This document shows, in pieces, positions 18,630-29,544 of a stretch of DNA of 34,819 nt. The notes beneath the pieces are model-generated. The model was given only the letters and a program-made list of their open reading frames with translations. It made no database searches and had not been told where the DNA came from. The DNA comes from Bacteroidetes bacterium CG12_big_fil_rev_8_21_14_0_65_60_17 (GTDB taxonomy: Bacteria; Bacteroidota; Rhodothermia; Rhodothermales; UBA10348), in contig PCUY01000065.1 in NCBI GenBank assembly GCA_002787815.1, forward strand, positions 1 to 34,819. The letters run 5' to 3'. The position numbers and the translations under genes are program-made. Within the stretch, counting starts at the first letter, position 1. Every line of letters starts with the position of its first letter.

Positions 18630-18681
18630 ATCATATATGATGTATTATGCCATTATACTGGCTTAAACAATCATAAATGAT
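18630..18681. promoter_or_regulatory. Paired palindromic operators of hipBA
   Basis: Two nearly identical 12-bp palindromes, ATCATATATGAT (18630-18641) and ATCATAAATGAT (18670-18681), lie exactly 40 bp apart, each preceded by AAACAAT (18621-18627 and 18665-18671). The second overlaps the first start codons of hipB. A TATACT box lies between them (18654-18659). The arrangement is that of HipB operators, where paired sites repress the hipBA promoter cooperatively. Sequence is observed; binding is inferred. Confidence 0.65.
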
Positions 18682-19039
18682 GGGTAATGTATTTACGGGT
18701 TCCGATACGGACGTGCTGAAGGAGCTCGGCCGTCGGGTGGAACGCTTGCGCCTGGATCGTAACTGGACACAGGAACAGCTGGCCCGGGAATCCGGCGTGT
18801 CGCGGCCGACGGTGGAGCGCATGGAAGCGGGGTCGTCGGGCAGCATGACTTCGTTTATCCGCGTGCTGCGGGCTCTCGACCGGCTGGAAGCGCTGGACGA
18901 TTTGGTGCCCGTTCCGGATATCCGGCCCATGGATGTGCTCCGTGCGGGTACACGGAGACGCCGCCAACGTGCCCGCCCGAGAACTTCGGACGGCGATGGG
19001 CACAACCCGTCCGCGTGGACCTGGGGAGATGAGGTCTGA
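18677..19039 (+). CDS. HipB-like XRE antitoxin/repressor
   Basis: The 120-residue protein carries a helix-turn-helix at residues ~16-70: LGRRVERLRLDRNWTQEQLA, RESGVSRPTVERMEAG, FIRVLRALDRL. The C-terminal tail is basic and probably disordered (TRRRRQRARPRTSDGDG), unlike the compact E. coli HipB end. It precedes hipA by 2 bp and would both neutralise HipA and bind the palindromes at its own start. ATGs at 18677 and 18680 are both possible starts. Confidence 0.88.
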   Translation: MMGNVFTGSDTDVLKELGRRVERLRLDRNWTQEQLARESGVSRPTVERMEAGSSGSMTSFIRVLRALDRLEALDDLVPVPDIRPMDVLRAGTRRRRQRARPRTSDGDGHNPSAWTWGDEV

Positions 19040-19041
19040 CC

Positions 19042-20349
19042 ATGGGTACGCTGGCCGAAGTGCGCTTGTGGGGCACCACGATCGGAGCCGTTTTCCTGGA
19101 CGACGGCGAAACCGTGGCATCGTTTGAATACGCCCCAGGCTTCCTGGGCAGCGGGATCGGGTTGTCGCCGGTGCATCTGCCACTCAGGCAAGGCGTGTTC
19201 CGTTTCCCGGAGCTGGACGGTGGGGCTTTCCACGGATTGCCCGGCATGCTCGCCGATTCGCTTCCCGACCGGTACGGCCATGCCCTTATCAATGCCTGGC
19301 TGGCGCGTCAGGGCAGGACACCCGAATCGTTCAATGCGGTGGAGCGCCTGTGCTATGTGGGGCGGCGAGGCATGGGAGCGCTGGAATACGAACCGGCCCG
19401 CGGACCCGATCCGTCTGAATCGCACGTGCTCCAGGTCGGAACGCTGGCCGAGCTTGCCGGGCGTGTCATCCGGGAGCGAGGACGTCTCGATACCCGCCTG
19501 GATGCCGGGGAGGATGCCATCCGGGACATCCTTCGGGTCGGTACGTCGGCAGGTGGTGCGCGGGCAAAGGCGTTGATTGCCTGGAATCCGGAAACCAATG
19601 ACGTGCGGTCGGACCAGGTTCACCCCGGGGATGGCTTCAGCCATTGGGTATTGAAGTTTGACGGTGTGTCGGGCGATGAACGTATTGAGGTCGGACGATC
19701 CACCGGGTATGGTGCGGTTGAATACGCGTATTCGGTCATGGCGCGGCGTGCGGGCATTTGCATGCCTGAGACACGCTTGTTCGAGGAAGGGGGGCGGCGC
19801 CATTTCATGGCTCGCCGCTTCGACCGGACGGACGAAGGCGACAAGCGCCACATGCAGTCGCTCGGTGCGCTCCTGCATTTTGACTACAACCTGGCTGGAG
19901 CCTACGCCCATGAACAGGCGCTCGCGCTGATCCGTCGACTCGGGCTTGGCATGGATACCGTGGAGGAGCAGTACCGTCGCATGGTGTTCAACATCGTCAC
20001 GTGCAACCAGGACGATCACGTCAAGAACATCGCGTTCCTGATGGATCGGAGGGGGCACTGGTCATTGTCTCCTGCATTCGACATTACATGGAACTACAAC
20101 CCGGAAGGCGCCTGGACCAGCCGCCACCAGATGAGGGTGAACGGCAAGCGGGACGATTTCACGACCGGGGACCTGGAAGCAGTTGCCGACGCAGCCTCCA
20201 TGAAACGCGGGCGGTGGCGTGAAATCCTGCAGGACGTGCTGAATGCGGCGGCTGCATGGACGGATGTGGCTTTCGAAACCGGCATTCCCGAGGACGATGC
20301 ACGCGCGATAGCAGCCACGTTCCGCATCATTGCGGACGAGGACGTGTGA
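19042..20349 (+). CDS. HipA-like serine/threonine kinase toxin
   Basis: The 435-residue protein has both HipA parts. The N-terminal subdomain is TLAEVRLWGTTIGAVFLDDG with the LPGMLADSLPDRYGHALINA signature. The kinase domain has a Gly/Ser loop VGTSAGGARAKALI, ATP-binding lysine in HWVLKFDGVSG, the catalytic loop FNIVTCNQDDHVKNIAFLMD and the metal-binding PAFDITWNYN. In E. coli HipA, phosphorylation of glutamyl-tRNA synthetase causes growth arrest and persistence; the target here is unknown. All catalytic residues are present, so the toxin looks active. It forms a 2-gene operon with the upstream antitoxin. Confidence 0.92.
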   Translation: MGTLAEVRLWGTTIGAVFLDDGETVASFEYAPGFLGSGIGLSPVHLPLRQGVFRFPELDGGAFHGLPGMLADSLPDRYGHALINAWLARQGRTPESFNAVERLCYVGRRGMGALEYEPARGPDPSESHVLQVGTLAELAGRVIRERGRLDTRLDAGEDAIRDILRVGTSAGGARAKALIAWNPETNDVRSDQVHPGDGFSHWVLKFDGVSGDERIEVGRSTGYGAVEYAYSVMARRAGICMPETRLFEEGGRRHFMARRFDRTDEGDKRHMQSLGALLHFDYNLAGAYAHEQALALIRRLGLGMDTVEEQYRRMVFNIVTCNQDDHVKNIAFLMDRRGHWSLSPAFDITWNYNPEGAWTSRHQMRVNGKRDDFTTGDLEAVADAASMKRGRWREILQDVLNAAAAWTDVAFETGIPEDDARAIAATFRIIADEDV

Positions 20350-20379
20350 GGTCGCATTCTTGAAGACCCGGCGTATACA

Positions 20380-20410
20380 TTGCTATCCAATGGCATGGCC
20401 CGTATTATTG
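20380..20410 (+). promoter_or_regulatory. Candidate promoter of the arginine leader
   Basis: TTG (20380-20382), a 20-bp spacer and TATTATTG (20403-20410, one mismatch to TAnnTTTG) fit a Bacteroidota-type promoter. The box ends 5 bases before the ATG of the arginine-rich leader ORF, so the transcript would start at or near that ATG. Confidence 0.4.
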
Positions 20411-20415
20411 CGCGC

Positions 20416-20514
20416 ATGACTACGAAACCATTGCACAGCACCGCCGAGCGACGCCGACTTTCGGTTCGACGTATGACCCCCAGGGGCCATCCGGCAGTCC
20501 ATGCACGCGTGTAG
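20416..20514 (+). CDS. Arginine-rich leader peptide upstream of argG
   Basis: A 32-codon ORF with seven arginines, including RRR at codons 12-14 and RR at 18-19 (AERRRLSVRR). It lies between hipA and argG. The stop at 20512-20514 is 32 bases before the strong terminator hairpin at 20547-20580. Enrichment in the end-product amino acid directly before the biosynthetic operon and its terminator is the design of ribosome-mediated attenuators. No Shine-Dalgarno is visible; a leaderless start is possible given the promoter-like box 5 bases upstream. In a high-GC genome arginine codons are common, so chance is a real alternative. Confidence 0.4.
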   Translation: MTTKPLHSTAERRRLSVRRMTPRGHPAVHARV

Positions 20515-20546
20515 TCCAGTGTAGACCACTGATTCCCATGTTGCAG

Positions 20547-20580
20547 CGCTGATCCGGAGCCCCGGGTCGGCGTTTTTTTT
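20547..20580 (+). terminator. Strong intrinsic terminator before argG
   Basis: An uninterrupted 11-bp stem, CGCTGATCCGG (20547-20557) and CCGGGTCGGCG (20562-20572) with two G-U pairs and loop AGCC, is followed directly by eight T residues (20573-20580). It is 51 bp upstream of the argG ATG and 197 bp past the hipA stop. It may simply end the hipBA transcript. Alternative pairings with the leader exist: CCGGCAG (20491-20497) can pair with the 5' arm across a 2-base bulge, and CGCCGAC (20452-20458) with the end of the 3' arm. It is therefore also a candidate attenuator. Confidence 0.8.
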
Positions 20581-20631
20581 AGCGCCCACGTTCCGGTTCC
20601 AGTCCATCCCGAAACACCTCATCCAGTACTC

Positions 20632-21828
20632 ATGTCCATACTTGTAGCCTTCAGCGGGGGACTCGATACGTCCTTCTGTGTGCCCTGGCTGAAAGAAGAA
20701 TACGATCTGCCCATCACGACGGTGACTGTCGATACGGGCGGCCTGTCATCCCGCGAACGCGTAGCCATTGAAAAGCGCGCGCTGGAACTGGGGGCCGAGC
20801 GCCATATCCTGGTCGATGCGCGGCAGGACCTGTTCGAAACGCAGATCCAGTACCTCATCAAGGGCAATGTGCTGCGCGGGGACGTGTATCCGCTCAGCGT
20901 GGGCCCCGACCGGGTGGTCCAGGCCAGGCATGTGGTCCGCGTGGCCAGGGAACTGGATGCGACGTACGTAGCCCACGGGTCCACCGGGGCCGGAAACGAT
21001 CAGATCCGGTTCGATGTGGCGCTCTCGGTATTGGCGCGGGGCCTGGAAGTGCTCACGCCCATCCGGGACGGAAACCTTTCGCGGGCCGATACGACCGCGT
21101 TCCTGAAAGCCCGGGGATTCGACGTTCCGGCGTCCACGACCACGTATTCCATCAACACCGGGATGTGGGGAACGACGATTGGCGGGCGCGAGACGCTCGG
21201 CACGAAGCAGCCGCTTCCGGAAAATGCGTATCCCGGCACGGTGAATCCGGCCGATGCGCCGGACGAAGCCCAGACCATTGAAATTGTCTTTGAAAAGGGC
21301 GTTCCGGTGGCCATCGACGGCGCCCCGTTGGATCCCGTAAGCCTCATTGAAGCCCTCAACGGAATGGGCGCGGCCCACGGGGTGGGCCGCGCCATTCATG
21401 TGGGGGACACCATACTCGGTATAAAGGGCCGCGTGGCGTTCGAGGCACCGGCCGCGCTTATTCTCATCCAGGCCCACCGGGAGCTCGAAAAACTCGTCCT
21501 CACGCGGTGGCAACGATACCACAAGGACCAATTGGCCGATTTCTATGGTATGATGGTCCATGAAGCCCAGTATTTCGACCCGGCGCTGCGCGATATCGAA
21601 GCGCTGTTCGACGCATCCCAGGAATTTGTGACCGGCGCAGTAACGGTACGGCTGTTCAAGGGCCACTCCAGCGTGGAGGGTGCGGAGAGTCCGTATTCCA
21701 TGTTCGACACGTCCGTTGCCACCTACGGCGAGACCAACTCCCTGTGGGATGGTCGGGATGCCCGCGGATTCGCGCGTATTCTGGGTGTCCAATCCATGTT
21801 GTCTCCATCCAATCGGGTCCAGTCATGA
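20632..21828 (+). CDS. argG: Argininosuccinate synthase
   Basis: ArgG joins citrulline and aspartate using ATP, the penultimate arginine step. The 398-residue protein has the PP-loop LVAFSGGLDTSFCVPWL near the N-terminus, with DTGG just after. Citrulline/aspartate-site regions appear as AHGSTGAGNDQIRFD and SINTGMWGTTIGG. Length is typical of class I ArgG. It is the first gene of the arginine cluster; the next gene starts at its stop (ATGATGA). The preceding 280 bp hold the candidate leader peptide and terminator. Confidence 0.96.
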   Translation: MSILVAFSGGLDTSFCVPWLKEEYDLPITTVTVDTGGLSSRERVAIEKRALELGAERHILVDARQDLFETQIQYLIKGNVLRGDVYPLSVGPDRVVQARHVVRVARELDATYVAHGSTGAGNDQIRFDVALSVLARGLEVLTPIRDGNLSRADTTAFLKARGFDVPASTTTYSINTGMWGTTIGGRETLGTKQPLPENAYPGTVNPADAPDEAQTIEIVFEKGVPVAIDGAPLDPVSLIEALNGMGAAHGVGRAIHVGDTILGIKGRVAFEAPAALILIQAHRELEKLVLTRWQRYHKDQLADFYGMMVHEAQYFDPALRDIEALFDASQEFVTGAVTVRLFKGHSSVEGAESPYSMFDTSVATYGETNSLWDGRDARGFARILGVQSMLSPSNRVQS

Positions 21829-22913
21829 TGAATGACACCAAGCAGGTTCGCGCCACGTACGTATCGTCCACGGCGGCCGTCACCGGAATCACGAAAGACG
21901 TCACCGTTTCGGACTACGTCGTGGCGCAGGAAGGCTACTGTCTGGTGGTTGAAGCGCTTGAATCCAAACCCCACTACAACCAGATTGAGTGCGAGGACGG
22001 CGAGTTCCGCACCATTGCCCAGGGGGACATCCTGGTGGGTGTTCTCGGTGAGCGGAAAGCGCTCAAGGGATACAGCGGCGTGGTGCCGCGCTCGGCGCAT
22101 CCGGACGATACACTGCATGTATTGAACATCGGCGGCGTCATCGGCACCTGCACGTCGGATCATCCGGATCTGGGGCCTGCGCTTCGCGTTAAGGTGGTCG
22201 GGGCGGCCATGGTGCAGCTCAACGGGCGTCTGGTCCACGCGCGTATCCAGGATTTTGCCCTGCAACCCATTGAGCGGCTCGAGCAGTCGGTGCCGCTGGT
22301 CTTTATCAGCGGAACGGCCATGAATACAGGGAAGACGTGGGCCGCCTGCGAGCTCGTGCAGCGCCTGACGGGTCACGGGCTGAAGGTGTGCGCGGCGAAG
22401 GCCACGGGTGTTGCGCTCATGCGCGACATCAACACCATCAAGCGGCACGGCGCCGTGCGCGTCATGTCGTTCACCGATGTGGGGCTCGTGTCGTCGACGT
22501 CGAAGGCCATGTCCTCCTACGTGAAGGCCATCATCAAGGAGCTTTCGCAGGAAGAGCCGGACGTGATCGTGATTGAGCTCGGGGACGGTATCATTGGGTA
22601 CTACGGTGTCGATGAGCTGTTGCAGGATAAAGAGTTGCAAGCTTTTTCCGCGGCGCACATCGTGGCCGCAGTGGACTTGGCCGGGGTCTGGGCGGCGCAG
22701 CAACTGTTCAAGGAGCGCTACCATGCCGAAATCACATGCATTACGGGGCCGGTGACGGACAACGGGGTCGGCCAGCAGTACATTCGGCAGGTGATGGGGC
22801 TGGCGGCCATCAATGCGCGCGAGGAGCCGGCCCGCATGGGCACGGTCGTGGCTGCCCGGTTGAACAAGAAAAAGGGACTCATGGAGCTCGCCAATGAATC
22901 GCAGATTGGATAG
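21825..22913 (+). CDS. P-loop protein of the arginine cluster, candidate glutamate N-acyltransferase
   Basis: The 362-residue protein has no assigned function from sequence alone. Residues 1-~150 look beta-rich (QGDILVGVLGERKALKGYSG, LHVLNIGGVIGTC). Residues ~157-330 form a P-loop domain: Walker A ISGTAMNTGKTWAACEL (GTAMNTGKT at 163-171), AAKATGVALMRDINTIKRHG, MSFTDVGLVSSTSKAM and a Walker-B-like strand DVIVIELGDG (246-255). The arrangement resembles the C-terminal domain of DUF1611 proteins and dethiobiotin synthetase folds. It sits between argG and argC, where it overlaps argC by 20 bp, and no other gene here can make N-acyl-glutamate. DgcN, a D-glutamate N-acetyltransferase, is a DUF1611 member, which motivates the functional guess. 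A regulatory ATPase is an alternative. Start at 21825 follows the argG stop overlap. Confidence 0.85.
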   Translation: MMNDTKQVRATYVSSTAAVTGITKDVTVSDYVVAQEGYCLVVEALESKPHYNQIECEDGEFRTIAQGDILVGVLGERKALKGYSGVVPRSAHPDDTLHVLNIGGVIGTCTSDHPDLGPALRVKVVGAAMVQLNGRLVHARIQDFALQPIERLEQSVPLVFISGTAMNTGKTWAACELVQRLTGHGLKVCAAKATGVALMRDINTIKRHGAVRVMSFTDVGLVSSTSKAMSSYVKAIIKELSQEEPDVIVIELGDGIIGYYGVDELLQDKELQAFSAAHIVAAVDLAGVWAAQQLFKERYHAEITCITGPVTDNGVGQQYIRQVMGLAAINAREEPARMGTVVAARLNKKKGLMELANESQIG

Positions 22914-24033
22914 GAACCACCCGGCGCGGGCCGTGTTGCTGCACGGCGCGGGCTATGTCGGGCGCGAACTGATTGGGGTGCTGCTCAGGCACGAGGGTGT
23001 GCAGTTGACACACGTGACCAGTTCCACGTTTGCCGGCGAGCCGCTCCACGCGGGCCATCCGGGGCTTCGCGGCGTGTCGGATTTGACGTTTTCCGCCGAG
23101 TGGCCTGAGCGCAGCGCGGCCGGGTCGGGTGCTTCGGGCGGTGGCGTGGCCGGTTCTGGGGTGGATGCGGCGGATGTCGTTTTCGTCACCGCCGGGCACG
23201 GACAGAGCGCCGAGGCGGTGGGGCGCGTGCGCGATGCCGGGTATGAAGGCCTTGTGGTTGACCTGAGTGCGGATTTCCGGTATCCGGACGTTTCGTCGTA
23301 TGAAACCTGGATCGGGGCATCGCACACGCGCCCCGACCTGCTTACCGGAGCCCTCTATTCTCTTCCGGAGATCACGGGCGATCTGCCGTCCGATGCGCGG
23401 CTCGTTGCCAATCCGGGGTGTTTCGCAACAGCGCTGGCACTGGCGCTCTGGCCGCTGTCGCAGCACGTGCCTGCCGGCGCGGCAGTCGCGGTGACGGCGC
23501 TCACGGGCGCATCGGGCTCCGGCGCGCGGCCATCCGCCGGAACGCATTTTCCGGACCGGGATGGCAACGTGCGAGCCTACAAGGTGCTGGCGCATCAGCA
23601 CGCCGCCGAAATTTCCCAGCTCTTTCCCGATGCCTTCCGGTTTTCGTTCGTGCCGGTCTCGGGGCCGTGGACGCGGGGTATCTGGGGAACGGCGCAGGTG
23701 GATTTGACCGGGGGCGGCCCGGCGGAGCGCAGCCCGGTGCACAGCGATGCCGCGCTGTTGGAGGAGGTCTCTGCATGGTTCCGCGCCGCGTACGGCAGCG
23801 CCCCACTGGTGCGCCTCTCGTCGCCCGGCACGCTGCCCGACATGCTCCCGGTCGTGGGAACGCCGTTTGCAGACATCGGCTGGATCGTGAAAAACGGCAC
23901 GCTTGTCGTCGGCTTCGCCATTGACAATCTGCTCAAGGGAGCGGCCTCGCAGGCCATACAGAACATGAACCTGGCGTTCGGCTGGCCCGTCGGGGCCGGA
24001 CTTCTTCCGTCGCATCTACCCGAATACGCATGA
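22894..24033 (+). CDS. argC: N-acyl-gamma-glutamyl-phosphate reductase
   Basis: ArgC reduces N-acetyl- (or N-succinyl-) glutamyl phosphate with NADPH to the semialdehyde. The 379-residue protein has the Rossmann start AVLLHGAGYVGRELIGVLLR and VVDLSADFRYPD. The catalytic Cys is in LVANPGCFATALALALWPL and GASGSGARPS follows; the C-terminal substrate region is FSFVPVSGPWTRGI. A Gly/Ala/Ser-rich insertion (AAGSGASGGGVAGSGVD) interrupts the NADPH domain near residue 80. The gene overlaps the upstream P-loop gene by 20 bp and argD by 4 bp, so translation is coupled. Confidence 0.95.
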   Translation: MNRRLDRNHPARAVLLHGAGYVGRELIGVLLRHEGVQLTHVTSSTFAGEPLHAGHPGLRGVSDLTFSAEWPERSAAGSGASGGGVAGSGVDAADVVFVTAGHGQSAEAVGRVRDAGYEGLVVDLSADFRYPDVSSYETWIGASHTRPDLLTGALYSLPEITGDLPSDARLVANPGCFATALALALWPLSQHVPAGAAVAVTALTGASGSGARPSAGTHFPDRDGNVRAYKVLAHQHAAEISQLFPDAFRFSFVPVSGPWTRGIWGTAQVDLTGGGPAERSPVHSDAALLEEVSAWFRAAYGSAPLVRLSSPGTLPDMLPVVGTPFADIGWIVKNGTLVVGFAIDNLLKGAASQAIQNMNLAFGWPVGAGLLPSHLPEYA

Positions 24034-25247
24034 CATCCATGACATCTCCCGCGGCCATGACCCGCGATGAACTCATGCAGCTCGAGGACCGTCTTCAGCT
24101 GCGCACCTACAACAAGCTGCCCATCGTGGTGGAGCGCGCCGAAGGATCGTGGCTCTGGGATGTAGATGGGAGGCGCTATCTGGATTTCTATGGGGGGCAT
24201 TGTGTTGCGCTCCTCGGGCACGCGCATCCGCGCGTTGTGAGGGCGGTTACGGAGCAGAGCCGGAGCATCCTGTTCTACTCGAATCTGGTGTATTCGCCGG
24301 TCAGGGCGCGTGCGGCGAAGAAGCTGATGGATCTGGCTCCGTGCGAGATGAAGCAGGTGTTTTTCTGCTCGACGGGGACGGAGGCGAACGAGACGGCGCT
24401 CAAACTGGCACGCAAGGCGACGGGGCGGGCGCGGGTTGTGGCCATGGACGGGGATTTTCACGGCCGCACGATGGGGTCGCTCGCCGCTACGTCGCATCAG
24501 AAGTACCGCGATGGGTATGAAAAGGTATTTCCGGAGACGGTTTTCGTGCCCTTCGGGGACGAGGCGGCGCTCCGTGAGGCGCTTCGGCATGAGGCAGGCG
24601 TGGCGGCGGTAATCGTCGAGCCTATCCAGTCCATGGCGGGCGTGACGACGGCTCCAGCCTCGTATTTCCAGGCCATGCGCCGGCTTTGTGATGAGGCGGG
24701 CACCATGCTGGTGTTCGACGAGGTGCAGACCGGCGTGGGACGCACCGGAACGTTCTCGATATCGGACCGCTACGGCATGCGACCGGACATGATTACGCTG
24801 GCCAAGAGCCTGGGGTCGGGTGTGCCTGTGGGGGCCGTGCTCGTCAACCAGAAGATTGCCGATACGGTGGGATACGGCGACCAGGGGACGACATTCGGTG
24901 GCGGCATGATGGCCATGGCGGCAATGGAAGCGACGCTCGATGCGCTGCGCGAGGATGGCCTCATGGAGCGCGCAACGGAAATACACGACCGTATTTTTGA
25001 CGGGATCCGCAAGTACGGGGGGACGCTCCGCGGGGAGGGGTGCCTGATTGGCCTGGAGGCGTCGCGCCCGGTGGCTCCCATCCTGAAGGGGTTGCGTGAT
25101 GAGGGCGTGATTGCCGGTGGGTCGCTCGATCCGAATGTGATGCGGCTCATGCCGCCGCTCACGGCGACCGACGAGGAAGTGGACTTTTTTATAGATGCGT
25201 TCGCGCGCGTCGTGGAACCCATGCTGGCTGCCGATCATGAAGACTGA
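24030..25247 (+). CDS. argD: N-acyl-ornithine aminotransferase
   Basis: ArgD is a class III PLP aminotransferase converting N-acyl-glutamate semialdehyde to N-acyl-ornithine. The 405-residue protein shows FFCSTGTEANETALKLARKA (PLP phosphate binding), MDGDFHGRTMGS, VFDEVQTGVGRTGTF (Asp contacting the PLP ring) and the Schiff-base lysine in ITLAKSLGSGVPVGAVL. It is the generic acetylornithine/succinylornithine/4-aminobutyrate class; the cluster context defines its role. ATGA overlap with argC; its last 11 bp overlap argF'. Confidence 0.94.
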   Translation: MTSMTSPAAMTRDELMQLEDRLQLRTYNKLPIVVERAEGSWLWDVDGRRYLDFYGGHCVALLGHAHPRVVRAVTEQSRSILFYSNLVYSPVRARAAKKLMDLAPCEMKQVFFCSTGTEANETALKLARKATGRARVVAMDGDFHGRTMGSLAATSHQKYRDGYEKVFPETVFVPFGDEAALREALRHEAGVAAVIVEPIQSMAGVTTAPASYFQAMRRLCDEAGTMLVFDEVQTGVGRTGTFSISDRYGMRPDMITLAKSLGSGVPVGAVLVNQKIADTVGYGDQGTTFGGGMMAMAAMEATLDALREDGLMERATEIHDRIFDGIRKYGGTLRGEGCLIGLEASRPVAPILKGLRDEGVIAGGSLDPNVMRLMPPLTATDEEVDFFIDAFARVVEPMLAADHED

Positions 25248-26340
25248 GGGGCCGCTGCGTCATCTGCTGAACTGGAATGAGGTGCCGGCGGGCGTCTGGG
25301 ATGCGTGCCTGGAGCGGGCGTTGGCGTTCGGCGCGGGTGCGGCGGATGCTTCTGGTGCGGCGGGCGCTTCTGCCATGGCGGGCGCTTCTGGCGGGGCGGC
25401 GCGGACTGGCGCGGCCGGGCCGGGCGCGGGCCGCGAAGTGGTGCTGCTTTTTTTCAATGATTCCCTGCGCACACGCGTCTCCATGGAAATGGCAGCGCGG
25501 GGCCTCGGGGCTGGCGTCTCGACGGTCGTTCCCGGGCAGGGGACGTGGGGGTTCGCCTGGGGCGACGCGCCCATGACGGGGACCGAAGCGGAGCATATCG
25601 AGGAGGCGGTGGGCGTGCTGTCGCGCTACGCCGACGTGCTGGGCGTCCGACTCTTTGCATCGGGTACGGATCTGGAGGCGGACCGGACCGATGCGCGTCT
25701 GCGCAGGATTACGGCCACGGCGTCGGTACCGGTGGTGAACCTGGAGTCGGCGTGGTATCATCCGTGTCAGGCGCTGGCCGATGCGGCGGTGCTCAGGCGG
25801 CTCGGGTTTGGCGGGGGTGGCGGCGCGGGCCGCGGCAAATTCGTGCTCTCGTGGGCGCCGCACCCCAGAGCACTTCCGATGGCGGTGCCGAATTCGGCGG
25901 TTTTGGCGGCCGCGCGGCTCGGGATGGAGGTGACGGTGGCGAGGCCGGAGGGGTTCGGGCTCGACAGCGCGGTGATACGTGCGGCCCGCGCGGCCGCAGC
26001 GGGAAGTGGCGGAAGTGTGACCGAGAGCAGTGACCAGCGGGCGGCGTTCGAAGGCGCGGACGTGATCTACGCCAAGAGTTGGGGCGGCATGGGGCGCTAC
26101 GCCGATCCGGCGGCCGAAGAGGCGGCGCGCCTCGCACTCGTGGAGGGTCCGGCGTCCTGGCGCGTGACGGCGCCGCTCATGGCGCAGACAAAAAATGCGG
26201 CTTTCATGCACTGCCTTCCCCTCAGGCGGGGCATGGTGGTCGATGCGGACGTTCTGCGGAGTGAGAACGCGGTGCACCTGGAGCAGGCGGAGTACCGGTT
26301 GCATGCGCAGAAGGCTATTCTGGAGTGGATCTGGTCGTGA
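25237..26340 (+). CDS. argF': N-succinyl-(or acetyl-)ornithine carbamoyltransferase
   Basis: This is the ArgF' class that carbamoylates N-acylated ornithine, not ornithine. Motifs: carbamoyl-phosphate site FFNDSLRTRVSME, HPCQALAD, SWAPHPRALPMAVPNS (diagnostic of the N-acyl class) and FMHCLPLRRGMVVDADVL. At the residue that separates acetyl (Glu, in TEEH) from succinyl (Pro, in KPEH) enzymes, this protein has Ala118 in GTEAEHIEEA. Mutagenesis of the Xanthomonas acetyl enzyme at that position to small residues is known to give succinyl activity, so succinyl-ornithine is the likelier substrate. Residues ~30-66 are a Gly/Ala/Ser insertion absent from homologues. Start 25237 is preferred; the longer ORF begins inside argD. 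Confidence 0.92.
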   Translation: MKTEGPLRHLLNWNEVPAGVWDACLERALAFGAGAADASGAAGASAMAGASGGAARTGAAGPGAGREVVLLFFNDSLRTRVSMEMAARGLGAGVSTVVPGQGTWGFAWGDAPMTGTEAEHIEEAVGVLSRYADVLGVRLFASGTDLEADRTDARLRRITATASVPVVNLESAWYHPCQALADAAVLRRLGFGGGGGAGRGKFVLSWAPHPRALPMAVPNSAVLAAARLGMEVTVARPEGFGLDSAVIRAARAAAAGSGGSVTESSDQRAAFEGADVIYAKSWGGMGRYADPAAEEAARLALVEGPASWRVTAPLMAQTKNAAFMHCLPLRRGMVVDADVLRSENAVHLEQAEYRLHAQKAILEWIWS

Positions 26341-27143
26341 ATATGAAGCATCCTGTGCCTGTGGTCGTGAAAGTCGGCGGCGCGCTGCTCGGCGAATCGG
26401 TGGACCGGCGTGCGTTCTGGTCGCAGATCGCGGCGCTGGGGCCCGCCGTCGTGGTACACGGCGGCGGGCCCCAGCTGACGGCGATGGCCGAAAGGCTTGG
26501 GTATTCGCCGCGCGTTGTCCAGGGGCGGCGCGTCACCGGCCCGCACGATCTGGATATGGTACGGTGGGTGCTGCGCGGTGAGCTGTCGACGCTGCTCGTA
26601 ACGGAGGCGCTCACGGCTGGCGTGCGGGCCGTCGGCGTGAGCGCCGTGGACGCGGACATGGTCCGCGTCACGCGCCGCCCCCCCTGGAACATGGACGGAG
26701 AGACGGTGGATTTCGGATTCGTGGGCGATATCGAGCGGGTTTCGCCCGGCCTGGCCCTGGATCTGCTGACAGCCGGATATACCCCCATTGTGACGCCGAT
26801 GGGCCGGGACGCGGATGGCCAGATCTATAATGTAAACGCCGACACCGTGGCGGCGGCGCTCGCCGGAGCCGTGGGCGCCGGGGTGTTGCTGCTCGTGACC
26901 GAAGCCGCGGCCGTGCGCGACGTGCACGGCGAGCGCGTAACCGAACTGACGCCAGCATCCATTGAGCGTGCAAAAACCGACGGCTGGATTGCCGGCGGCA
27001 TGCGCGTCAAGGTGGACGTCGCTCTCGGCGCGCTGGCCGCCGGCACACAGACTGTCTGGATCTGCGGTCCGGACGATATCGCGTCGCGCCAGCGTGCCAC
27101 CCGGATCGTGCCTGAACCGGACAATCGCGCGACCAACTCATGA
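26337..27143 (+). CDS. argB: N-acyl-glutamate kinase
   Basis: ArgB phosphorylates the gamma-carboxylate of N-acyl-glutamate. The protein is an amino-acid kinase: VVVKVGGALLGE with the catalytic Lys, AVVVHGGGPQLTAMAERLG, NVNADTVAAALAGAVGAG and the C-terminal GGMRVKVDVALGAL. It lacks the N-terminal helix typical of arginine-inhibited hexameric kinases, so feedback control at this step is doubtful. Start choices are GTG 26325, GTG 26337 and ATG 26343; 26337 gives the GTGA overlap used elsewhere in this window and an 11-base spacing from GGAG (26322-26325). Confidence 0.93.
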   Translation: MNMKHPVPVVVKVGGALLGESVDRRAFWSQIAALGPAVVVHGGGPQLTAMAERLGYSPRVVQGRRVTGPHDLDMVRWVLRGELSTLLVTEALTAGVRAVGVSAVDADMVRVTRRPPWNMDGETVDFGFVGDIERVSPGLALDLLTAGYTPIVTPMGRDADGQIYNVNADTVAAALAGAVGAGVLLLVTEAAAVRDVHGERVTELTPASIERAKTDGWIAGGMRVKVDVALGALAAGTQTVWICGPDDIASRQRATRIVPEPDNRATNS

Positions 27144-28231
27144 GCGCTGTATCTCCCGATATCACTACGCTCCAGCTGCACCGCGACCTCGTCGCCATTC
27201 CGTCGCTGAGCCGTCAGGAAGCCGCTGCGGCCGACCACCTGGAAGCGTGGCTGCGCGCCCGCGGTGTGGATGTGGTGCGTTACGGCGACAACGTGGTCGC
27301 CTCAACAGGCGACGGAGCAGTAGCCGACCGCACGCTGCTCCTGAACTCGCATCTCGACGTCGTGCCGCCGTCGGCCGACCACCCGTTTTCGCCCTTCGAG
27401 CCCGTCGTTCACGATGGCGCCGTCTGGGGGCGGGGATCGGTCGATGCGAAGGGGTGTGTGGCCGCCATGGCGTCGGCGCTCGTGGCCTGGTCGCGCCGGA
27501 AGGACCCACGGCGAGGCCGCCTCGTGGGCGCGTTTACGACGTGCGAAGAGCTGGGGGGTGCGGAGAACGGTCTTGAGGACATCCTGCCGAAGCTGGGAGC
27601 GCTCGACGCGGCGCTCGTCGGCGAGCCGACCCACATGCAGCCCTGCACAGCGCAGAAGGGGCTGCTCATCCTGAAACTCGTAGCGCACGGACGTTCGGCG
27701 CACGCCGCCCGCGCCGCCGAGGGCGAAAATGCCATACTGAAGGCGGCAGAGGCCGTCCGCCTGCTGGACGCCCTCTCGTTTTCGCCCGACGATCCGCTCC
27801 TGGGGCCGGTCACCTGCGTTCCGACCGTTATCGAGGGGGGCGCTGCCCGCAACGTTGTGCCCGATGCCTGCACCGTCTGGCTCGACATCCGGTCCACGCC
27901 GACGTGGCCGCACGACCGTATTTTGTCCCACGTGTCACGTCACATGGGCGGGATCGTGGATGTCGTGGTGCATAGCGACCGGTTGCATCCCGTCGGAACA
28001 GACCACGCGGAAGACATTGTGCAGGCGTGTATTCGCAGCTCAGGCCGCGAACCCTTCGGATCGCCCACCGTATCGGACTGGGTGCATCTGCGCCGCGTTC
28101 CCACCGTCAAGATCGGGCCCGGCGACAGCCGGCTCTCCCACACGCCGCGCGAGCATCTCCCCATAACCGGGTTGGAGCATGCCGTCTCGATGTATGTCAA
28201 CATCATCGACGCCTATTTCGGAAAGTCATGA
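27140..28231 (+). CDS. argE: N-acyl-ornithine/citrulline deacylase (M20 family)
   Basis: An M20 zinc amidohydrolase that would remove the acyl group from N-acyl-citrulline (in the ArgF' pathway the deacylation follows carbamoylation). Metal-site motifs: LLLNSHLDVVPPSADHPFSP, WGRGSVDAKGCVAAMASAL, FTTCEELGGAENG with the catalytic Glu, and LVGEPTHMQPC. The C-terminal HTPREHLPITGLE carries the last metal His. 363 residues. ATGA overlaps on both sides. Substrate (acetyl or succinyl) follows whatever the ArgF' uses; DapE-type activity is a less likely alternative given context. Confidence 0.92.
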   Translation: MSAVSPDITTLQLHRDLVAIPSLSRQEAAAADHLEAWLRARGVDVVRYGDNVVASTGDGAVADRTLLLNSHLDVVPPSADHPFSPFEPVVHDGAVWGRGSVDAKGCVAAMASALVAWSRRKDPRRGRLVGAFTTCEELGGAENGLEDILPKLGALDAALVGEPTHMQPCTAQKGLLILKLVAHGRSAHAARAAEGENAILKAAEAVRLLDALSFSPDDPLLGPVTCVPTVIEGGAARNVVPDACTVWLDIRSTPTWPHDRILSHVSRHMGGIVDVVVHSDRLHPVGTDHAEDIVQACIRSSGREPFGSPTVSDWVHLRRVPTVKIGPGDSRLSHTPREHLPITGLEHAVSMYVNIIDAYFGKS

Positions 28232-29544
28232 GTAAAAAACCCATCTGGTTCAAGGAAGGAGCGGCCGCTGACTGGGTCACCCGATTCACGGTCGGCGATG
28301 ACCCCTATTGGGACACCATCCTGCTGCCCTACGACCTGCGCGCGTCCCGGGCCCATGCCCGCGGCCTGGTGACGGCGGGCGTGCTAACGGACGAGGAATT
28401 CAGCGCACTCGACGAGGCCATTGCCGGGCTCGAAGCGCGCGACGACCTGACAGTCAACGTTGCGGACGAGGACTGCCACTCGCTCATTGAACGTCTGCTC
28501 ACCGAGCGGGTCGGAGACATCGGCCGCCGCATCCACACGGGCAGAAGCCGCAACGACCAGGTGCTCGCGGCCCTTCGGCTCTGGATGACAGATACGCTCG
28601 CCGCGCTCACCCGCGGTCTTGGAGACGTCGCGACCGCCCTTCTTGACATCGCAGACCAGGGCCACGACCGCTTCCTGCCGGGCTATACGCACATGCAGCG
28701 GGCCATGCCATCGAGTGTGGCGGTATGGGCGCACGGATACGCCGAAAACCTGATCGACGACCTGCGCGCCGTTCGCGACGCCCGCAGGCAGGTCAGCGCA
28801 TCGCCCCTCGGAAGCGCCGCGGGGTACGGCGTGCCGTTCCTGGATATGGCGCGTAAGCAGGTCTCCGATGAACTCGGGTTCGACCGGCTGCAGACGAGTG
28901 TGGCCGCCGTTCAGCTCTCGCGCGGCAAACTGGAACTGCACGCCGTGCACGCCATGGTGCAAGTGGCCATGACGCTTAACCGCCTTGCGTCCGATCTGGT
29001 GCTTTTTGCGAGCGCCGAGTACGGTTTTGTCACGCTTCCCCGCGAATACACGACAGGCAGCAGCATCATGCCTCAGAAACGGAATCCGGACGTGCTGGAA
29101 CTGGCCCGGGCGGCGCTGCACCGGATTACGGCCGAAATGCAGGTCCTGATATCGGTGCCTTCCAATCTGTCTTCCGGCTACCACCGCGACCTGCAACTCA
29201 CCAAGGAAGCGGTCATGCGGGCGCTGCTCCGCGGCCAGGACCTGGTGGCGGCCATGGCTGCCGTCCTGCCGGGCGTTGAGTTCGTGGATGAGCGCCTTGA
29301 AGCCGCCCGATCGGCCGATCTCTATGCCACGGCCCGCGCACTCGATCTCGTTCGCCAGGGCGTGCCGTTCCGCACGGCATACCGCCAAACGGCCGAGGCT
29401 CCGGACGCCTGGCAGGCCTACCGCACGGCCCCGGCTGCGGACACGTATACGCATGAAGGTGCTCCGGGCCGCACCCGCACAGCGGGCGCGGCCCTCCGCA
29501 CCGAACTCGCGCGCCTCATACCCGAAGCAGATACTGGAGCTTGA
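28228..29544 (+). CDS. argH: Argininosuccinate lyase
   Basis: ArgH splits argininosuccinate to arginine and fumarate, the last arginine step. The ATG at 28228 overlaps the argE stop (ATGA) and gives 438 residues. Superfamily motifs: ERVGDIGRRIHTGRSRNDQV, LPGYTHMQRAMPSS with the catalytic His, and the signature TTGSSIMPQKRNPDVLELAR with the catalytic Ser loop. The gene ends the arginine cluster; its final 29 bp overlap tail-to-tail with the DUF5916 gene on the other strand. Confidence 0.95.
   Translation: MSKKPIWFKEGAAADWVTRFTVGDDPYWDTILLPYDLRASRAHARGLVTAGVLTDEEFSALDEAIAGLEARDDLTVNVADEDCHSLIERLLTERVGDIGRRIHTGRSRNDQVLAALRLWMTDTLAALTRGLGDVATALLDIADQGHDRFLPGYTHMQRAMPSSVAVWAHGYAENLIDDLRAVRDARRQVSASPLGSAAGYGVPFLDMARKQVSDELGFDRLQTSVAAVQLSRGKLELHAVHAMVQVAMTLNRLASDLVLFASAEYGFVTLPREYTTGSSIMPQKRNPDVLELARAALHRITAEMQVLISVPSNLSSGYHRDLQLTKEAVMRALLRGQDLVAAMAAVLPGVEFVDERLEAARSADLYATARALDLVRQGVPFRTAYRQTAEAPDAWQAYRTAPAADTYTHEGAPGRTRTAGAALRTELARLIPEADTGA

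Follow-up and report, generated by a model that had tools for sequence, protein, structure and literature searches.

A P-loop protein as the probable replacement of the GNAT-type N-succinylglutamate synthase in arginine clusters of Rhodothermia

The first step of arginine synthesis is known from textbooks as a point of control. To our knowledge, its known forms are GNAT enzymes, ArgJ-type enzymes and LysW-carrier enzymes, and a P-loop fold is not among them. DgcN, which has D-glutamate as its substrate and acetyl-CoA as its donor, is the sole characterised remote relative of the P-loop protein described here. The GNAT protein BT3761 (ArgA2) was assigned as N-succinylglutamate synthase by genetic data and comparative genomics (PMC7311316; also PMC9026213). 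The GNATs surveyed below were equated with BT3761 by fold, position and co-occurrence. In the open-licence literature, we found no report of the P-loop family in arginine synthesis and no paper linking DUF1611, N-acetyltransferase and glutamate.

The window (the whole stretch of DNA analysed, 34,819 nucleotides) belongs to a Rhodothermales genome of 2.9 Mb that is 95.5% complete. It carries argG, the P-loop gene, argC, argD, argF', argB, argE and argH in this order on the forward strand, mostly overlapping. Model matches identified argG (argininosuccinate synthase, 20632..21828), argC (N-acyl-gamma-glutamyl-phosphate reductase, 22894..24033), argF' (N-acylornithine carbamoyltransferase, 25195..26340), argB (N-acylglutamate kinase, kinase domain only, 26325..27143) and argH (argininosuccinate lyase, 28228..29544, the start at 28228 being picked by eye). 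Judged by eye, the true start of argF' is probably the ATG at 25237. The argD-type aminotransferase (24030..25247) had argD models as its best matches, below their curated cut-offs, and the argE/dapE-type M20 deacylase (27140..28231) was closest to the dapE-gram_pos model, also below cut-off. With argD and argE taken at this level, argB, argC, argD, argE, argG and argH of the succinylated pathway are all present. No ArgA, ArgJ or GNAT was found within the cluster, and family scoring of the flanking genes thus bore out the initial annotation of a full arginine cluster that lacks these acyltransferases. A synthase fused to ArgB or ArgH was considered and rejected, since each has its own domains only. 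Just upstream of argG (18677-20349), a small helix-turn-helix protein precedes a HipA-like protein of 435 aa (by eye); from their sequences, the two look like a HipBA toxin-antitoxin pair.

The candidate gene for the N-acylglutamate step (21825..22913, forward strand) runs from ATG to TAG, encodes 362 aa and shares 4 bp with argG and 20 bp with argC. Its Walker A motif, GTAMNTGKT, occupies residues 163-171 (22311..22337, forward strand). The open reading frame, the motif, the place between argG and argC and the 20-bp overlap were all as first described. No Pfam or NCBIfam model matched the protein over any cut-off, the nearest being DUF1611, and a sequence search of the PDB with the single protein as query gave no match. 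Of 59 relatives, 36 have an orthologue, and further orthologues were found in other Rhodothermia; their identity to the window protein is 43-97%, and among the relatives searched, they were seen in this class only. An alignment of 34 orthologues has 70 invariant columns, which, together with the occurrence in relatives, indicates that the reading frame is more than a chance one.

The search for a first-step enzyme was extended to the rest of the genome. ArgJ was not found in the window's genome, nor in any of 60 Rhodothermales genomes, and classical ArgA was not found over cut-off in the ten genomes tested; in the window's genome, the only match to the ArgA model was argB, below the ArgA cut-off. 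The profile of the Bacteroidota-type GNAT synthase likewise had no match there. The genome encodes eight GNAT domains, none of them NAGS-like, and the idea that one of these is a hidden NAGS was rejected, as they are generic GNATs and one AblB-like protein. The survey for an ArgA, ArgJ or GNAT elsewhere, which had been proposed with the initial annotation, therefore revealed no alternative synthase in the window's genome.

The distribution of the P-loop gene and the GNAT synthase was compared across the 60 Rhodothermales genomes. The P-loop gene alone was present in 36 (counting G041, where the gene is a fragment at a contig end), the GNAT alone in 18, both in one (G036) and neither in five. 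In four of these five, neither argC nor argF' was detected, and G034, the fifth, has no argF'. The GNAT profile scores were all-or-none, at least 314 bits or no match. Each of the 48 genomes with argC and argF' has the P-loop gene alone (32), the GNAT alone (15) or both (1). The association between the two genes in these 48 genomes gives a Fisher p of 1.5e-11, in a test that ignores relatedness. The GNAT synthase was also not found in six more Rhodothermia carrying the P-loop gene. A canonical synthase in all carriers had been named as the finding that would speak against the proposal; the GNAT was present in one of 37 surveyed carriers.

Relatedness was taken into account with a tree of concatenated ArgG, ArgC, ArgD and ArgB, genes that may themselves have moved. 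On this tree, the P-loop and GNAT states require 6-7 changes, at least 3-4 of which fall on branches with good support. Supported branches offer four independent contrasts: the two genes change in opposite directions in three, and in one the GNAT does not differ. These independent switches are too few for a significant sign test, so the evidence for exclusivity is strong, not conclusive. G036 has the P-loop gene in the usual slot and the GNAT elsewhere, and its family mate G047 has the GNAT only; G036 is possibly an intermediate of a swap between the two genes.

The position of the P-loop gene is conserved. It fills the slot between argG and argC in 27 of 27 other intact clusters (23, and four more from Rhodothermia); one further cluster with the gene, cut by a contig end, lies outside this count. 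In 15 Rhodothermales clusters without the P-loop gene, argC directly follows argG. Outside Rhodothermales, 13 Bacteroidota clusters, four of them from another family of the same class, have a GNAT of 188-255 aa directly upstream of argG. A GNAT at this site was sought in the Rhodothermales clusters lacking the P-loop gene and was not found; the GNAT of those genomes is located elsewhere, with no arg gene nearby in the four inspected. Unlike in other Bacteroidota, the ArgA2-type GNAT has left the arginine cluster in Rhodothermales.

Comparison with a congener (G001) gave 86% DNA identity over positions 20357-23085, which span argG and the P-loop gene, with most 250-base bins at about 0.86-0.92. 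Outside this block, the flanking arg genes are 66-73% identical and the upstream DNA does not align. Judging from these sequences, it is as if argG and the P-loop gene had moved as one block. The ends of this recombination mosaic lie near the argG start and in early argC.

The genus Rhodothermus connects this distribution to growth data. A protein of one surveyed genome (G042) matches the cellulase of PDB entry 2bw8, which we take to be Rhodothermus marinus Cel12A, without a difference over 224 residues, and on this one protein match the genus of G042 was identified as Rhodothermus. All five genomes of the genus have the P-loop gene and none of the five has the GNAT. Glucose medium free of amino acids supports growth of R. 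marinus DSM 16675 (PMC9590192). Since R. marinus grows in this way and no GNAT synthase was found in its genus, something must make acyl-glutamate, and the P-loop gene is the obvious candidate.

The carbamoyltransferase of the cluster indicates which acyl group to expect. The best PDB alignment of the window's ArgF' was to 3l02, an Ala variant of the Xanthomonas N-acetylornithine enzyme (wild-type Glu, 3kzc), and ArgF' of the window likewise has Ala at this position, which governs acetyl/succinyl specificity. Ser, Pro, Ala or Val at this position is associated with a preference for succinylated substrate (PMC7311316). The other Rhodothermales P-loop clusters scored have Ala in all cases, once Pro; the two most distant Rhodothermia have Thr and Gln. 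From the Ala at this switch, N-succinyl-L-glutamate is the expected product of the P-loop protein. The nearest model to argE, a succinyl-diaminopimelate desuccinylase, fits a succinylated pathway. Of the acetyl or succinyl product initially envisaged, the same ArgF' residue thus favours the succinyl form and speaks against the acetyl form.

An AlphaFold2 model built from the 34 orthologues (mean pLDDT 92.4, pTM 0.90) predicts two domains. The N-terminal one is a beta domain (about residues 1-148; 21825..22268, forward strand), for which comparison with the PDB gave no usable match (Foldseek best E 0.09; VIA best Z 3.8, LexA C-domain type). The C-terminal one is a SIMIBI-class P-loop domain (about residues 149-351; 22269..22877, forward strand). 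No match of the protein to GNAT sequence or fold was found. The P-loop domain matches 2g0t (Z 17.0), 2obn (Z 16.0) and DgcN (7xrj, Z 15.2; an N-acetyltransferase by its PDB title); 2g0t and 2obn both match the DUF1611 profile. BioD (Z about 15.8), CTP synthase and ApbC tie with these DUF1611 structures.

The sequence kinship to DUF1611 is remote. The DUF1611 model PF07755 scored the window protein at 18.8 bits (E 0.0012), below its gathering cut-off of 25 bits, and reached E<0.1 in 32 of the 34 orthologues (best E 1.2e-4); true DUF1611 members from this order reach 180-214 bits. The Rossmann domain DUF1611_N (PF17396) was found in 13 of 13 true members vs none of the 34 orthologues. An hhalign comparison of the P-loop family and the true DUF1611 proteins from this order gave a probability of 60% over 175 columns, in the P-loop domain. 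Filing the protein under DUF1611 was rejected because it falls below the Pfam cut-off and has no DUF1611_N domain; its relationship to DUF1611/DgcN is a remote, structural one that falls short of membership. The comparison with DUF1611/DgcN and dethiobiotin synthetase that had been suggested thus upheld a distant relationship of the P-loop domain and not membership, and the original label "DUF1611-like" proved weak, with a beta domain standing in place of DUF1611_N. True DUF1611 proteins of the DgcN type are common in the window's family, but the search found none in G000-G003, the genus of the window. A sister family is homologous to the P-loop protein over both domains (hhalign 99.9%, E 3e-34); it differs in having 22-29% identity to it and in lying outside arg clusters. 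By eye, one branch of this sister family has M20-peptidase-like and flavin-reductase-like neighbours, and another has ABC-transporter-like neighbours.

Because the P-loop protein is encoded in the arginine cluster and occurs nearly only where the GNAT is missing, it probably performs the first step. We propose that the N-succinylglutamate synthase has been displaced non-orthologously by this non-GNAT P-loop enzyme in Rhodothermia, with a probability of roughly 0.7. Near-exclusivity with the GNAT and the conserved position lend strong support to the proposal in the initial annotation that a non-GNAT enzyme carries out the missing N-acylglutamate step. The P-loop protein would take the place of the BT3761-type GNAT synthase ArgA2 and transfer a succinyl group onto the alpha-amino group of L-glutamate, with the reaction, the L-stereochemistry and the donor all inferred, and ArgB, ArgC, ArgD, ArgF', ArgE, ArgG and ArgH would take N-succinyl-L-glutamate on to arginine. 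By analogy, succinyl-CoA is slightly more likely as the donor than succinate plus ATP, since DgcN is an N-acetyltransferase. Against displacement stand the presence of both genes in G036, the remoteness of the kinship with DgcN and the usual role of P-loop folds as ATP or GTP machines.

The displacement would take another form if the protein were an ATP-dependent ligase, which would form the acyl phosphate of succinate at the P-loop and then couple the succinyl group to L-glutamate without CoA. This version does not exclude displacement, and its overall probability makes it a tentative one. BioD activates a carbamate in a comparable way. In the P-loop family the Walker A motif is intact, and two further residues, K192 and E251, are invariant; K192 is aligned with the Lys that follows the P-loop in BioD. 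BioD also gives the best PDB sequence matches of the family profile, at a weak E of 0.025, in addition to the structural tie of BioD and CTP synthase with DUF1611. The BioD model TIGR00347 itself reached 13.9 bits against a cut-off of 83.3, the P-loop Lys pattern is common to many SIMIBI proteins, and DgcN, with a similar structural likeness, is described as an N-acetyltransferase.

A different role altogether seems unlikely: the protein would bind one of the pathway enzymes, or sense arginine or a nucleotide, and so act as a P-loop regulator or chaperone of the cluster, with acyl-glutamate made by another enzyme. Regulation and maturation are frequent roles of SIMIBI proteins, and the structural matches of the P-loop domain include HypB, ApbC and SRP GTPases; however, neither the exclusion of the GNAT nor the presence in every genome that has argC and argF' and no GNAT is expected of a regulator, and the window's genome yielded no alternative synthase. 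It is more improbable still, to the point of being a marginal consideration, that the cluster carries a DgcN-like enzyme of D-glutamate or ornithine side metabolism. The remote kinship with DgcN-type DUF1611 would suit such an enzyme, but true DUF1611 genes have loci of their own, whether or not the genome carries the P-loop gene, none was found in the window's genome, and the neighbours in the cluster are all L-arginine genes.

If displacement is correct, the P-loop enzyme would be a separate evolutionary solution for the entry into arginine synthesis, the gap in arginine annotation would be closed in Rhodothermia, Rhodothermus included, and a family below every curated Pfam and NCBIfam cut-off would gain a function. 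In the ligase version, the entry would be CoA-independent as well as non-GNAT, and an uncharacterised two-domain family would receive its first function.

Compared with known systems, the P-loop protein resembles ArgA2/BT3761 in its expected reaction and pathway and in being encoded in an arg cluster. In contrast, ArgA2 has a GNAT fold, is about 200 aa long, occupies another slot and has no homology to the P-loop protein. With DUF1611/DgcN, it shares a C-terminal P-loop domain of the same class, whereas the Rossmann DUF1611_N domain found there is replaced by an unrelated-looking beta domain. With BioD, it shares the SIMIBI P-loop domain and the Lys aligned with K192, but identity is 13-15%, BioD is without the N-terminal beta domain and its substrates are different.
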